Below, piece by piece: positions 34,496 to 51,395 of a stretch of DNA of 64,000 nucleotides (position 1 is the first letter of the stretch; each line of letters starts with the position of its first letter). A program made the position numbers and the translations under genes. Source of the DNA: Meiothermus rufus DSM 22234 (GTDB lineage: Bacteria; Deinococcota; Deinococci; Deinococcales; Thermaceae); NCBI RefSeq assembly GCF_000423425.1, contig NZ_AUHY01000005.1:1-64000 (forward strand), written 5' to 3'. The notes beneath the pieces are model-generated. The model was given only the letters and a program-made list of their open reading frames with translations, had not been told where the DNA came from and did no database searches.

Positions 34496-35857
34496 TTATC
34501 GCGCCAGCCGGCCCAGCAACATGGCGTAGCCCTGCTTGCCCTTCTCGAAGCTGGAAAGCCGGAAGAACTCGTTGGGGGAGTGAATCCGCTCGTCTTCCAA
34601 GCCAAAACCAAAGCTCACCGGGTCGTGCCCCAGCAGGGCCTTGAGGGTGGAAAGGATGGGCACCGAGCCCCCGAACATGGTCTCCACTGGGGGCACCCCG
34701 TATAACTCGGTGAGCACCTCCTTGGCTGCCTGGCAGCCGGGGTGGTCGGGGGCCATGCGGAAGGCCGGGGCCCCGGCCTCGCGCACATGCACCGCTAGCC
34801 TTACCCCTTTGGGGCAGTGGGCCTCGAGGTGGGCCTTCACCAGGGCCACGATCTTCTCGGGGTTCTGGTGGGGCACCAAGCGGCAAGTAATCTTAGCGTG
34901 GGCCGAGGAAGGGATCACGGTCATGGTGCCAGGGCCGGTATAGCCACCCCACATCCCGTTGACCTCGAGGGTGGGCCGGCCGGTCATGCGCTCCCAGGGG
35001 GTGTAGCCTTCCTCGCCGAAAAACTCGTCCACCCCCAGCTTGCGCTTGGCCTCTTCCTCGTCCCAGGGGATTTTTTTGTACCACTCGCGCAGCGTGGGGC
35101 TAAGTGGCTCCACCTCGTCGTAGAAACCCGCCACCGCCACGCGGCCATCGGGGCTGTGCAGCGAGGCGACCAGCTCGGCTATGGCGTGCAGGGGGTTTTG
35201 CACCTGGCCGCCCCAGGTGCCGGAGTGCAGGTCGTGGCTGGGGCCTACCAGGTCGAACTCGAGGGCGCAGATGCCCCGCACCCCTAAAGCCAACAGGGGG
35301 GTGGTCTCGGAGAGCTGGCCGCTGTCCCCGTTGATGATGTAGTCCGAACGCAAGAGCTCGCGGTGGGCCTGGATGAAACCCGGCAGGCTTGGACTGCTGA
35401 TCTCCTCCTCCCCCTCGATCAAGACCTTCAGATTTACCGCTAGCGTCCCGGTTTGAATAAGGGCCTCGGCGGCCAGTAAAAAGGCCATGACCTGGCCCTT
35501 CATGTCTGAGGCTCCCCGGGCTACGATGCGCCCGTCCACCACGGTAGGCTGGAAGGGGGGGGTGTCCCAGCGCTCGGGGTTATCGGCGGGTTGCACATCG
35601 TAGTGGCCGTAGTAGAGCACCGTAGGCTTTCCCGGGAAAGGGGTGTGCTCGGCATAGACCACCGGATGCCCGGCGGTGGGCATGACCTGGGCCTGGGCAA
35701 AGCCAGCCCGACGAAAACGCTCGGCTAGCCAGGCGGCCGCTCGCCGCACGTCCTCGGCATGGGCTGGCTGGGCCGAGATGCTGGGGATGGAAAGAAAGGT
35801 GCGGAACTCCTCGAGGTGGGTGGCTTGGTGCTGGGCAAGGTAGTCTTTCCAGTTCAT
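34496..35857 (-). CDS. M20 family metallopeptidase (dipeptidase)
   Basis: A 453-residue di-zinc peptidase. YYGHYDVQPAD near residue 83 and RGASDMKGQ near 115 hold the first zinc ligands and bridging Asp, and EGEEEISSPS near 148 carries the catalytic Glu pair. The insert domain (about 190-330) is the dimerisation lid. It belongs to the carnosinase-like/CNDP group that cleaves short peptides. ATG 35857 is 10 nt after TAGAAT. It ends at a strong terminator. Confidence 0.92.
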   Translation of the reverse strand: MNWKDYLAQHQATHLEEFRTFLSIPSISAQPAHAEDVRRAAAWLAERFRRAGFAQAQVMPTAGHPVVYAEHTPFPGKPTVLYYGHYDVQPADNPERWDTPPFQPTVVDGRIVARGASDMKGQVMAFLLAAEALIQTGTLAVNLKVLIEGEEEISSPSLPGFIQAHRELLRSDYIINGDSGQLSETTPLLALGVRGICALEFDLVGPSHDLHSGTWGGQVQNPLHAIAELVASLHSPDGRVAVAGFYDEVEPLSPTLREWYKKIPWDEEEAKRKLGVDEFFGEEGYTPWERMTGRPTLEVNGMWGGYTGPGTMTVIPSSAHAKITCRLVPHQNPEKIVALVKAHLEAHCPKGVRLAVHVREAGAPAFRMAPDHPGCQAAKEVLTELYGVPPVETMFGGSVPILSTLKALLGHDPVSFGFGLEDERIHSPNEFFRLSSFEKGKQGYAMLLGRLAR

Positions 35858-45344: not shown

Positions 45345-46361
45345 ATGCTGCAACGCTATCTACTGCGCGAGACGTTGTCGCTGTATCTGCTGGGTGTTTT
45401 GCTATTCGTCGGGCTCATCACCTTCGATCTGCTCTCCTCGCTCTCAGGGGCCTTCTTGAGGGCCAAAACCCCCGTGGGCGAAATTGCCCAGATGGTGGCC
45501 TACCGTGTCCCCTACACCCTGGGCATCGCCCTGCCGCTGGGGCTGGTGTTCGCCTTGCTGGTGGCTCTGGCCCGCTGGATTCGCCAGTCCGAACTCAAGG
45601 CCACCTACGCCAGCGGGGTTCCGCCCAAGGTCTTTATTGGGCCGGTGGTCGGGCTGGCCCTGGGAGTAGGCGCGGTGGTGCTGGTCAACGAGGGCTGGAT
45701 TAAGCCCATCGCCCAGGAACGCTTCGAGGCCCTGCAGTACAAAATCTACTACGGCTCGGAGCCTTCCGGCGTTCTCACCGAGCGCACCTACACCCCCCAG
45801 GGCCTAGGGGTTTACTACGCGCAGCGCATCTACCCGCCCCCTCAGGGTGGGGTGGGCTCGAGGCTGGAGGGCATCCGGGTGGTGGAGCCAGGGGGCTCGG
45901 TCTGGAGCGCCGAGCAGGGGGTCTGGGTCAACGGGGCCTGGCGGCTGGAAAAAGCCTACCGGGTGGACCCCAACGGGATCATCTACCAGGAGGCCGAGCA
46001 CCCCCTGCCCTTCCCGGTGGGGGTAGCGCCCAAGGCCGTTTCCTACGAGGCCATGCGGATGGAGGAGCTGCAAGCCGCGGCCCAGGCCGACCCCGCCGCC
46101 CACTTCCCCCTGGCCCGCCGTTACGCCAACGCTGCCGGCACGGTGGTACTGGCCTGGCTGGCGGTGGTGATTGGCCTTTCGCTGCGCGAATCAGCCTGGG
46201 CTTTCATCGCTGTGGTAGGGCTTATCTTTGGCTACTGGACCCTATTCACCTTCTCGGCCCAGCTAGCCCGCTTCGACCTGCTGGGGGCTTTTGCGGCCTG
46301 GCTGCCCAACCTTGTGTATGGTGGGCTGGCCCTTTGGGGAACCTGGAGGCTTGCCCGGTGA
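45345..46361 (+). CDS. lptF: LptF/LptG family permease (first paralogue)
   Basis: A 338-residue inner-membrane protein of the YjgP/YjgQ family: a cluster of membrane helices in the first 110 residues, a periplasmic beta-jellyroll of about 125 residues, and three C-terminal helices. These form the LptB2FG transporter that moves glycolipid to the outer membrane. A TATACT -10 (45329-45334) lies 10 nt before ATG 45345. It overlaps the next gene by GTGA. Confidence 0.88.
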   Translation: MLQRYLLRETLSLYLLGVLLFVGLITFDLLSSLSGAFLRAKTPVGEIAQMVAYRVPYTLGIALPLGLVFALLVALARWIRQSELKATYASGVPPKVFIGPVVGLALGVGAVVLVNEGWIKPIAQERFEALQYKIYYGSEPSGVLTERTYTPQGLGVYYAQRIYPPPQGGVGSRLEGIRVVEPGGSVWSAEQGVWVNGAWRLEKAYRVDPNGIIYQEAEHPLPFPVGVAPKAVSYEAMRMEELQAAAQADPAAHFPLARRYANAAGTVVLAWLAVVIGLSLRESAWAFIAVVGLIFGYWTLFTFSAQLARFDLLGAFAAWLPNLVYGGLALWGTWRLAR

Positions 46362-47398
46362 ACACCCTCGACCGCTATCTGAGCAAGGAGGTGGGGGCCT
46401 ACCTCCTGGGGGCCTTGGCGGTGGTGGTTCTGGCTTTGCTGGGGGGGGCTTTGTACGAGGTACTGGCCCCGTTGCTGGCGAGGGGGGCCGACCCTTGGGT
46501 GGTGAGCCAGTACCTGGCCTACCGGGTGCCCGAGGCGCTGGTGCGGGGGATGCCGCTGGCCTTCTTGTTCGCCCTTTTGCTGGTGCTCTCGCGCATGGGC
46601 GAGGAGTCCGAACTTAAGGCCATGCTGGCCGGCGGGGTTTCCAAGCTGCGGGTGCTGTTTCCGCTATTGTTGCTGGGCAGTGTGCTGTTTGTGGTGTGCC
46701 TACTGGCCGCCGACAGCCTGGTGCCGCGCAGCCTGCAGCAAGGGCAGAATGTCCTGCGCCAGGCGGTTTTGCAAAAACCTCGAGCCCTCTTGCAGCCGGG
46801 CACCAAGCTGGTGGACGCCTACGGGCGCATCGTGTATGTGGGCCAGGTCGGCCAGAGCGGCATCGGCCAGGTGCGGGTACTCACCGCCGAGGAGGTGCTG
46901 ATCGCAGAGGAGGGCCGCTTCGAAGAGGGCACACTGGTCCTCTCCCAGGGGCTACGGGTGACCTACGGGGGGGCTCGCCCGCGCACGGTGGCCCGCTTCG
47001 AGCGGGCAGTGGTGCCGCTGGTGGAACTATCCCTCGAGCCACCCGGGGGCCTTTTCACCCTGAGTGTAGCCGAACTGCGCCAGCGCATCGCCCAGTACCG
47101 GGCCCAGGGGCTGCCCTACCACGCCGAGCTAACCGCTTTGCAGCGCAAATGGGCCGAGCCTGCGGCGGTCTACTCCTTTGCCCTCTTTGCCGTGGGGCTG
47201 GCCTTTTACCTGCTGGGGGGTAGCCGCAGCCTGGGCATGCTGGGGGTGGTGGTGCTGACCTTCATCTACTATGCCACCTGGAGCGTAGGGCGGATTATGG
47301 GGGAGCAGGGGGTGCTACACCCGGTGCTGGCCGCCTGGGGGCCCAACCTGCTCTACGCCATGGCCGGGCTGGCTTTATTGCGGCTGGGGAAACGATGA
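46358..47398 (+). CDS. lptG: LptF/LptG family permease (second paralogue)
   Basis: A 346-residue permease of the same family, starting at GTG 46358 (GGAGG 8 nt upstream) inside the first paralogue's stop. Residues SELKAMLAGGVSKLRVL near 95 form the coupling helix for the LptB ATPase. The two paralogues plus the following LptD-like gene form a transport operon, although LptB and LptA are not in this window. Whether these bacteria export LPS or another glycolipid is not known from sequence. Confidence 0.88.
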   Translation: MNTLDRYLSKEVGAYLLGALAVVVLALLGGALYEVLAPLLARGADPWVVSQYLAYRVPEALVRGMPLAFLFALLLVLSRMGEESELKAMLAGGVSKLRVLFPLLLLGSVLFVVCLLAADSLVPRSLQQGQNVLRQAVLQKPRALLQPGTKLVDAYGRIVYVGQVGQSGIGQVRVLTAEEVLIAEEGRFEEGTLVLSQGLRVTYGGARPRTVARFERAVVPLVELSLEPPGGLFTLSVAELRQRIAQYRAQGLPYHAELTALQRKWAEPAAVYSFALFAVGLAFYLLGGSRSLGMLGVVVLTFIYYATWSVGRIMGEQGVLHPVLAAWGPNLLYAMAGLALLRLGKR

Positions 47399-50283
47399 GG
47401 AGCGGGGTACTGGGGCACTGGCAGGGAGGATGGCTTATTCTCCTATTGCTCCTGCTCTGCACACCCGCCCTGGCCCAGGAAACGAGCGGAGGTAAGAAGC
47501 TGAAAATCCTCGAGGCCCTTCGCCTGGAGCTGCGCAACGAGGGGGGCGAAGAACTGCTCATCCTGGTGGGCGACCCGGTCAAGATGGATCGGGATGGCGA
47601 GCGTATCGAGGCCGAACGGGTAATCTACAACCGCCAGCAAAAGCGCCTGCTGATGATGGGCAAGGTGCGCTACCAGGACAAGCAGGGCCAGCTCATCGAG
47701 GCCGAGGAACTCGAGCTCTTCACCGACGACGAAAGCTTCGAGGCCCTCGAGGTCAAAATCGAGTCCGGCGAGGTTTACCTAGAAGGGCCGGTCTGCCAGC
47801 GGGCCGCCGGGCAAATTTTGCTGCAAGAGGGCTACCTGACCCCCTGTCAGCGCTGTGAGCAGGAGGTGGCCGACTACGCCTTTCAGGCCCGCGAGGTGGT
47901 GCTCTACCCCGGCGACCGCATCATCGCCCGGGGCGTGTGGGTGCTCTTGCGCGGGGAACGCACCTTGTACCTGCCGGTGCTGCTGCTGTTCCTGAACGAG
48001 CGCCGTCCCAAGCTCGAGTTTGGCCAAAGCGATACCGAGGGGGTTTTTATTAGCGCCGACCTGCCCTATGTCTCCGACTTTGGCCTCGGCTTTACCTTGC
48101 TGCGCTACTTTGAGCGGCGCGGCTGGGGCTTTGGCTTCGACCACTACGGGGTGGGCGCGGCCCAGGAGCGGTACCAGTTCTTGTACCTGCCCCCGCCCGC
48201 TGGGCTGGTGCTGCCCGACAGCGACCCGCGCAAGGACGGGATTTTCAAGTACCGCCTGAGCTACAAGCTGGAGGAGCCCGACTGGCGGTTGGAAGGGTTG
48301 GTGCTGCGCGACGATAGCCCTCAGGCTGAGCCGCGCTTTTTGCAGGGGGCGGGGGGCCAGCCCGACTACACCACCTTCTTGATTGAGGCCGCCACCCGGC
48401 AGACCCCCACCAACCCCGAGCCCCTCTACCGCCTGACTTTGGACGGCTACCTCGACCACAACCCCCTGGCCCTGCCTAACGAGCGCACCACCCCCCAGCG
48501 GTTGCCCGAGGCCGAGGTGAGTTTCCCCAGAGGCCTCGAGGGGGAGCTGCGCCTCAACGGGCGGGTGTTGCTGGGCTACTACCAGGCCCCCTCCAACCCC
48601 CTCAACCGCAGCGCCCGGCGGCTGGGGCCCTACATTGGTGCAGGGCGGCTGTGGGTGGAGCACCGCGAGAGCTACCGCCCCGCCACCCCCCCCTGGCCAG
48701 GTTTTAGCTTTAGCGTGGAGAATACCTTTATCGGGCGCTACTACAGCACGCAGAACTTCGACATAGAGGGCAACCCTACCGAGTTCGAGCGCCTCGTTCG
48801 CTGGGATACCCGGGCCAGCCTAGGCCAGAGCCTGGGGGCCTTTAGCCTGAACCTGAGCGTAAGCCGCAACGTGGTGGAGGGCGAGACCCCCTTTCAGTTC
48901 GACTTCGAGCGTCCCCAGCGCAACAGCCGCCTCGAGGGTTAGTTCGGCTTCAACCCCGATCCCCTCTTTGCCTTCACCGCCCGAGTCTCGCGCGACCTCG
49001 AGCGCGGCCTCTTCGACCCTCTGGCCAGCTTCACCCTGGCCTCGCGTCCTTGGCCCTGGTTTAGCCTGTCCACCAGCGCTAGCCGCGACCTCGAGCAAGG
49101 CCGCTGGGGCTTTCTGCGGGCCAACCTGGCCCTCTCCCCAGCCCCTTTCAACCTAAACCTAGCCTACGAGCGGCAGCTCGAGCTAGGGCTGGATCGGCTC
49201 CTCACCCTGAGTACCGCCTACAACCCCCAGCCCTTCAACTTCTCGCTGCGCACCGGCTACCGCTACTGGGACGTGCAGGAAAAAGAAACCCGGCCCATCG
49301 CCCAGATACCCCTGATTGCCCGCTACGACCCCCTCGAGCTAGCGGCCAGCTACAACCCCCCCGGCAACACCACCGCGCTTGCCCACAGCCGCGACCTGAA
49401 CAACGGGCAGGCCATCCGCACCGAGCTAAACGTGGTCTTGCAAGAGCCCCCCGACAGTTTCCGCTTGCGCCAGACCTTCACCCACCTCTATGCCCCCCTG
49501 CCCTCGGCAGCCAACCCCAACCCCGTGCTCACCCCAGCCCTGCTGGACGGCCTGGCCCAGCTCACCCTGAGCCTGCACACCTTCGTCTTTACCCACACCC
49601 TCGGCTTTAGCCCCGGCAGCGAGAGCCGCTTCCGCCTGGGCTACCAGTACAGCGCCGACCTATTGCAGGCCGATTTGCTGTGGGCCTACCGCGAGGGCAC
49701 GCTGCGCAACCCCCGCCTGGTGCTAAGGGCCCAAGTGCGCGAGCCCGAGGTGTTCATCAACGAGGTCTCGGCAGAGGTTCACCTGCCCGAAAGCGAAAAC
49801 CCCCTCACCCTGGAGGACGACACCCAGGCCTTCCTGCGCTTTTTACGCTTTAGCGGCGAGCTGGAAATTCTCCCGGCGCCTTTGCGCCCGGAAGACCCCC
49901 CCGGCCTCTCCTTGCAGGGGTTTGTGGCCCTCGAGCGCCTCCCCGGCACCAGCGGGCGCTTCCGCCTGACCCTGCGCGAGTTTGGCCCCACCTTCAGCTT
50001 TATGGGCAGCGAAAAAACCCGCCTGTTCTATCGCATTGTGTGGAACGCCCCCGAGAGCGGACGGGAGTTCTTTCTACCCAACCTCGAGGGCACCATCCTG
50101 CGCCCCCGCTTCGACCTGGTCATCGACCGCTGCTGCTGGGCTTTCAAGGCCAGCGCCGACACCCTCAAGCAAGAACTCCGCTTTGCCTTTGCCTTGGGCG
50201 GCCAGGCTGCCGAGTTTTTGTTCAGCCCCAGCGAGTTTGTGCTGCCCGGCGGTATCCGGCTGCCCACCCCAGGAGGACGCTGA
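47395..50283 (+). pseudogene. lptD: LptD/OstA-like outer-membrane assembly protein interrupted by an in-frame TAG
   Basis: One continuous frame of 962 codons is split by a TAG at 48940-48942 (codon 516) into 47395-48939 and 48943-50283; there is no frameshift and no other stop. The first part has a signal peptide (cleavage after TPALA), an OstA N-domain (about 30-150) with CQRCEQE near 155, and the start of a barrel. The rest is amphipathic beta strands to the end. The TAG is one C-to-T change from the Gln codon CAG. It could be a nonsense mutation, a readthrough site or a sequencing error. ATG overlaps the lptG stop. Confidence 0.85.
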
Positions 50284-51395
50284 TGAAATGGTTCTGGCTA
50301 TCCCTTGGTCTACTTCTGGCCCTCTGGGCCTGTACCGGCAGCCGCGAGGAACCCACCCGTGCCTTGCTGGCCGCAGCCATTAACAACCCCAGCGGCAACA
50401 CCTACCAGATTCGCTTTTTCCAGGGCAGCACCCTCCAGCCAGGCAATTTCGACCAGCCCCGGCTGGTGGGAAGCTGGAGCCAGGAGGAGCCGATCGTCAC
50501 CCTGCTCTACCGCCGCAGCCTAGGGGTGGGCAACGACCAACTCTGGGTACTCACCCCCAGCCGCCTGCGCCGCTACATCGCCAACACTCTCACCGTAGAC
50601 GAGGTGGGAACCCCCCAGCTCGACGGTTTCGACCAGGAACTGGGGGTGGATTGCAGCCGGGGTTACCTAAGGCAGGGGCAGAGCAACCTCTTGCTGGTTT
50701 GTCCACCCCCACCCGCCACCCCACCCCGCCCCCTCGAGGAGTACCGGGCCTGGATTATCCCTTTTACAGCCACCACCCTTCCAACCCCAATCGATTTTCT
50801 CGACCCCAACCTGGTGCGCCTGACCGCTCCCGTGCGGCTGGCCCTAGGCCCCGCCGATCAGCTCCTCTACCTGACCCCCACGCAGGTGGGCCTGTACGAC
50901 TTCGTCAACCCCTTTATCGAGCGCCCCCTGAGCCTGAGCACCTCGAGCCCTTCCGATCTGATTTTTGTGGGCGGCCAGGCCCTGGGCCTCTTCGACGACA
51001 ACGACCCCAACACCACCGACACCACCCTGGCCTCCTGGAACCTCGGGGCTACCAGCGAGGTGGGCCTTAGCCGGGATAGCAACATCGCCGCACGGCAGTT
51101 TGCCCGGGGTGCCCCACCCATCCTTGTGCTGGGCACCGGGCTGGCCCGCTTTGAAGGAGGGTTCCAGCTACCCCGCGAAAGCGAAACCGGGCTATTGCGT
51201 ACGTTTGCCTATAGCACCGCTACGGTGGGCCTCGACCAGTTTCTCTACACCGCAGCCCAAAGCAGCCCCACCCTGCGGGTGATCGACCTGACCGCCAACA
51301 TCGCCAGCAGCCTCACCAGCGCCGGGGTGCGCTCCAGCACGCTGGGTAGCTTCCAGGAAAGCATTGTCAGCCTGGCCTTTATCCCGGTGGAATAG
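50283..51395 (+). CDS. Lipoprotein of unknown function (LptD operon)
   Basis: A 370-residue protein with a lipoprotein signal (lipobox LWAC at residues 14-17). The body is rich in short beta strands and Pro/Thr/Leu, with repeats of the type LVRLTAPVRLALGPADQLLYLTP that suggest a beta-propeller-like fold. I see no catalytic motif. AGGAGG precedes the ATG, which overlaps the lptD stop by 1 nt, so it is co-translated with the transport operon and may be an outer-membrane partner of the LptD-like protein. Confidence 0.78.
   Translation: MKWFWLSLGLLLALWACTGSREEPTRALLAAAINNPSGNTYQIRFFQGSTLQPGNFDQPRLVGSWSQEEPIVTLLYRRSLGVGNDQLWVLTPSRLRRYIANTLTVDEVGTPQLDGFDQELGVDCSRGYLRQGQSNLLLVCPPPPATPPRPLEEYRAWIIPFTATTLPTPIDFLDPNLVRLTAPVRLALGPADQLLYLTPTQVGLYDFVNPFIERPLSLSTSSPSDLIFVGGQALGLFDDNDPNTTDTTLASWNLGATSEVGLSRDSNIAARQFARGAPPILVLGTGLARFEGGFQLPRESETGLLRTFAYSTATVGLDQFLYTAAQSSPTLRVIDLTANIASSLTSAGVRSSTLGSFQESIVSLAFIPVE

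Follow-up and report, generated by a model that had tools for sequence, protein, structure and literature searches.

An in-frame TAG in the lptD gene of a Meiothermus draft genome: recent nonsense lesion or sequencing error

The closest described counterparts of the protein discussed here are the LptD/OstA proteins (LPS-assembly proteins of the outer membrane) of E. coli and Klebsiella, whose solved structures (8h1s, 5iv9 and 4q35 among them) pair an N-terminal beta-domain with a large C-terminal beta-barrel. In a survey of atypical diderms that included Deinococcus-Thermus, lptD and lptE were reported to be absent throughout (PMC8871954). For a stop codon within a gene, the described systems are nonsense pseudogenes or alleles, on the one hand, and UAG recoding or amber suppression (pyrrolysine, suppressor tRNAs), on the other. 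Here we analyze such a stop in a divergent lptD gene of Meiothermus, a harmless bacterium of hot springs. The window, i.e. the whole stretch of DNA analyzed, comprises the initial 64 kb of a contig of 78 kb, part of a draft genome of 2.74 Mb (121 contigs; completeness 99.99%, contamination 0.45%).

The gene lies on the forward strand as the third member of a compact operon. The two genes preceding it (45345-46361, 338 aa, and 46334-47398, 354 aa) are intact and encode permeases of the LptF/LptG family (Pfam PF03739, 174.7 and 233.7 bits, respectively). The lptD frame itself (47395-50283), recognized through its orthologues in congeners, its predicted fold and its cysteines, opens with an ATG at 47395, closes with a TGA at 50281-50283 and would encode 962 residues if read through. 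It is followed by a gene for a predicted lipoprotein of 370 aa (50283-51395), which carries a signal peptide with a lipobox-like LWAC motif and has no family match in Pfam or NCBIfam. Each gene overlaps the next: lptF with lptG, lptG with lptD, and the TGA of lptD with the ATG of the lipoprotein gene. A sequence-only reading of this DNA had described a tightly overlapped lptF-lptG-lptD-lipoprotein operon, its other genes intact, with a TAG at codon 516 of lptD, and the gene coordinates bear out both points: the TAG (48940-48942) lies in the frame set by the ATG and is the sole stop within the 962 codons. As written, only the first 515 codons (47395-48942, stop included) are translated, which covers the signal peptide, the N-terminal domain and the beginning of the barrel, and 446 codons (48943-50283) are left as an untranslated remainder. 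Before and after the TAG alike, codon usage points to coding in one and the same frame, and the orthologue is a single unbroken protein in most congeners, at 79-87% identity; on these sequence comparisons, the interrupted frame is more than a chance open frame.

Sequence searches of Pfam, NCBIfam and the PDB put no name on the product. The Pfam LptD model (PF04453) has no match at E<=1 anywhere in the genome, and the N-terminal model LptD_N gives only a sub-threshold match of 14.9 bits; a Pfam match is an aid to detection, however, and not a biological property. An AlphaFold model built from 26 relatives, of medium confidence (pLDDT 72.9, pTM 0.42), predicts an N-terminal beta-domain and a large C-terminal barrel, the arrangement known from LptD structures. 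When this model was compared with the PDB using Foldseek, 36 of the best 40 matches were LptD chains, with E-values down to 7e-10 and a probability of 1.00, the TM-scores being low (about 0.2-0.3). A Cys-Cys-Trp signature at residues 913-915, downstream of the TAG, is invariant in the alignment of all 26 relatives, as are Cys 151 and Cys 154; we take C913, C914, C151 and C154 to match the disulfide cysteines of E. coli LptD. The position of the gene directly downstream of two PF03739 genes adds a genomic link to the Lpt pathway, and LptA/OstA-like genes on contig 32 add another. The lptD label, proposed in the sequence-only reading, thus stands through predicted fold, cysteine motif and gene context, and not through a sequence family. 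A second copy acting as back-up was considered and rejected, as a search of the genome returned a single match.

The origin of the stop was addressed in the 16 other Meiothermus genomes that cover codon 516. All 16 carry a sense codon there, which specifies serine in 15 (TCG in eight, TCC in three, AGC in three and TCA in one) and threonine in the remaining one; neither glutamine (CAG) nor a stop appears among them. The TAG had been noted to lie one transition away from CAG, but a CAG origin is rejected by this comparison. The ancestral codon specified serine and was probably TCG, and the simplest route to the present sequence would be a single C-to-A transversion, from TCG to TAG.

We considered whether the stop might be bypassed. 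Programmed or suppressor-mediated readthrough would yield a full-length LptD and would be in keeping with the 446 codons past the TAG, over which the frame remains open and under constraint, yet we regard it as very improbable. There is no CUA anticodon among the 37 tRNAs found, which include those for Ser, Tyr, Gln, Trp and Leu and form an incomplete set that lacks Phe, Lys and Asp tRNAs; the search for an amber suppressor tRNA, suggested earlier as a check, was thus negative within this catalogue. The gene for RF1 is intact, and loss of this factor is accordingly rejected. TAG is the commonest stop codon, closing 324 of 689 predicted genes; with a strong suppressor at work, roughly one protein in two would run past its normal end. 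Codon 516 is a stop in none of the relatives. Finally, a codon-usage scan for stops flanked on both sides by coding in the same frame, which covered 1.46 Mb (53% of the genome), found no second TAG of similar kind and argues against genome-wide recoding of TAG. We see little chance that a strain with a real TAG nonetheless produces full-length LptD through a UAG-decoding tRNA hidden in an assembly gap or through low-level natural readthrough.

Lower still is the probability we assign to a split LptD, in which two separately translated halves would assemble as one barrel. The break does interrupt the barrel, and barrels cut in two can reassemble in the laboratory. In the scan, however, the lptD TAG was the only stop with no start within the next 60 codons, the others all having one within 28. 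The first in-frame start is a GTG at 49273, 111 codons past the TAG, and the sequence leading up to it has no Shine-Dalgarno-like motif, a result that agrees with the earlier observation that no re-initiation site follows the stop. A C-terminal half made from that point would lack a signal peptide, and no congener has the gene split at codon 516. The RF1 gene, stop codon usage, the tRNA complement, the scan and the absence of a nearby start therefore make readthrough, recoding and a split gene all unlikely. Of the three readings put forward from the sequence alone, recent loss of function and artefact both fit these results, whereas readthrough finds no support in the tRNAs, RF1, TAG usage or the genome scan.

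If the stop is taken at face value, the change of the serine codon (probably TCG) to TAG by a C-to-A transversion would end translation after 515 residues, inside the beta-barrel domain; in the AlphaFold model, codon 516 sits in a predicted barrel strand spanning residues 508-522. The product would lack about half of its barrel strands together with the Cys-Cys pair and the barrel's C-terminal end, and this truncated protein, presumably non-functional, should fail to assemble in the outer membrane and be degraded, which would amount to a null allele. Polarity caused by the early stop could also reduce expression of the downstream lipoprotein gene.

The 446 codons past the TAG provide a measure of how long such a state might have lasted. 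Against 13 congeners, their dN/dS ranges from 0.17 to 0.25, which shows purifying selection, and they contain neither a frameshift nor an extra stop. The ratio of dN in the C-terminal part of lptD to that in the N-terminal part is 1.50 in this genome and 1.25 (s.d. 0.34) among the other congeners; it thus falls within the congener spread and gives no evidence of relaxed selection. Under neutrality, and assuming an indel rate equal to 10% of substitutions, 0.05 substitutions per site would be expected to bring about 1.7 more stops into the remainder, plus indels, and at third positions the branch to this genome measures 0.38-0.60. A constrained remainder without a second lesion, set at the end of so long a branch, implies that the lesion is either young relative to the branch of the species or not real. 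Long-standing decay of lptD, on the other hand, is rejected, the remainder being intact and constrained.

The choice is hence between a recent lesion and a spurious base. We give a little better than an even chance to a recent single-base nonsense lesion that converted serine codon 516 to TAG, truncates LptD inside the barrel and leaves, as written, a null allele; the TAG would then be present in the organism's own DNA. Somewhat short of even stands the prospect of a sequencing or assembly error, in which case the organism would have an intact lptD and the TAG would come from a miscalled base in this 121-contig draft. The fully constrained stretch downstream, free of any second lesion, speaks for an error, and so does the conservation of the gene, which was matched in 59 of the 61 genomes searched and may be needed. 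The genome also contains lpxC with an lpxD-like gene beside it, and lpxA with a weak lpxB-like gene beside it (contig 12, 29567-30313, and contig 56, 14124-15746); together with the conservation of lptD, the presence of these genes suggests that losing it could carry a cost, a point in favour of an artefact. Moreover, G-to-T or C-to-A changes are a known signature of DNA damage, and another conserved gene of this genome, on contig 18, is frameshifted at a run of six A, and sequencing errors can take this form. Against an error, the lptD lesion replaces a single base and does not lie in a homopolymer, and errors of this type are rarer in drafts. The completeness (99.99%) and contamination (0.45%) estimates weigh in the same direction, and no other such nonsense codon was seen in the 53% of the genome scanned. 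In our judgment, a real allele stays slightly ahead of a sequencing or assembly error, and the two are close.

When 54 orthologues were set against a closed congener, the contig 18 gene was the one other gene found broken. Read from its sequence as dihydrodipicolinate-synthase-like, it has its frame shifted at about 35330-35420 (stretch L144, break at ~35,350), where six A stand in place of the five in the closed congener; the gene may be a true pseudogene, the run may be a slippage site, or the assembly may be wrong here. A 'disrupted orthologue' with five stops, also on contig 18, was dropped because the reference ORF was in the wrong frame.

Taken alone, the lptD TAG matters little, being a lone nonsense codon in a single draft genome. 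Should the base be real and the strain healthy, LptD would be dispensable in a Meiothermus that has lpx genes, and this would bear on what the Lpt pathway exports in the Deinococcota. The more useful results are to be found to the side of the lesion. By predicted fold and Cys-Cys-Trp signature, a divergent but clear LptD is present throughout the Thermaceae and goes undetected by PF04453, in contrast with the absence of lptD and lptE in the survey cited above. In Meiothermus, where lpxA and lpxC accompany it in the genome analyzed here, this LptD is a putative exporter of LPS to the outer membrane. Among the 60 relatives searched, LpxC was detected in 16 of 17 Meiothermus and in none of 14 genomes of a sister genus, Thermus by inference, all 14 of which still match LptD. 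The retention of LptD without a detectable LpxC suggests that the Lpt pathway of this sister genus may transport a cargo other than lipid A.

Two further observations concern the same pathway. On contig 32 (L160, 5280-7770), away from the lptFGD operon, three genes lie in a row, the first LptC-like by size and position and the other two LptA/OstA-like. In two genomes of the sister genus (G031, stretch L120, and G034, stretch L119), lptD is frameshifted at runs of C, the run in G034 being C6 and that of relatives in which it is unbroken C7 or C8. These frameshifts may be sequencing indels, real losses or slippage sites; since both fall at C runs and are possibly sequencing indels, they were set aside as cases of parallel lptD loss.

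Compared with LptD/OstA of E. coli and Klebsiella, the Meiothermus protein agrees in its predicted fold with a large C-terminal beta-barrel, in its adjacent C-terminal Cys-Cys pair and two invariant N-terminal cysteines, and in its lptF/lptG neighbours. It differs in its sequence (about 10% identity, no PF04453 match), in the interruption of its gene by a TAG and in its operon, which also includes two permease genes and the gene for a lipoprotein that belongs to no known family. With UAG recoding and amber suppression, the locus shares a UAG that interrupts, in frame, a gene intact in all other respects, and it departs from them in a genome with no CUA tRNA found, an intact RF1, TAG as the main stop and no second case. 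The lptD TAG is thus an ordinary nonsense codon, recent or spurious, with no sign of unusual decoding: a premature stop relative to intact orthologues, with no re-initiation. As in other nonsense pseudogenes and alleles, one base change would have created a stop in a frame that is otherwise intact and shows no added decay, in a single genome; unlike them, the gene affected here is a conserved envelope gene, one that is not clearly dispensable.
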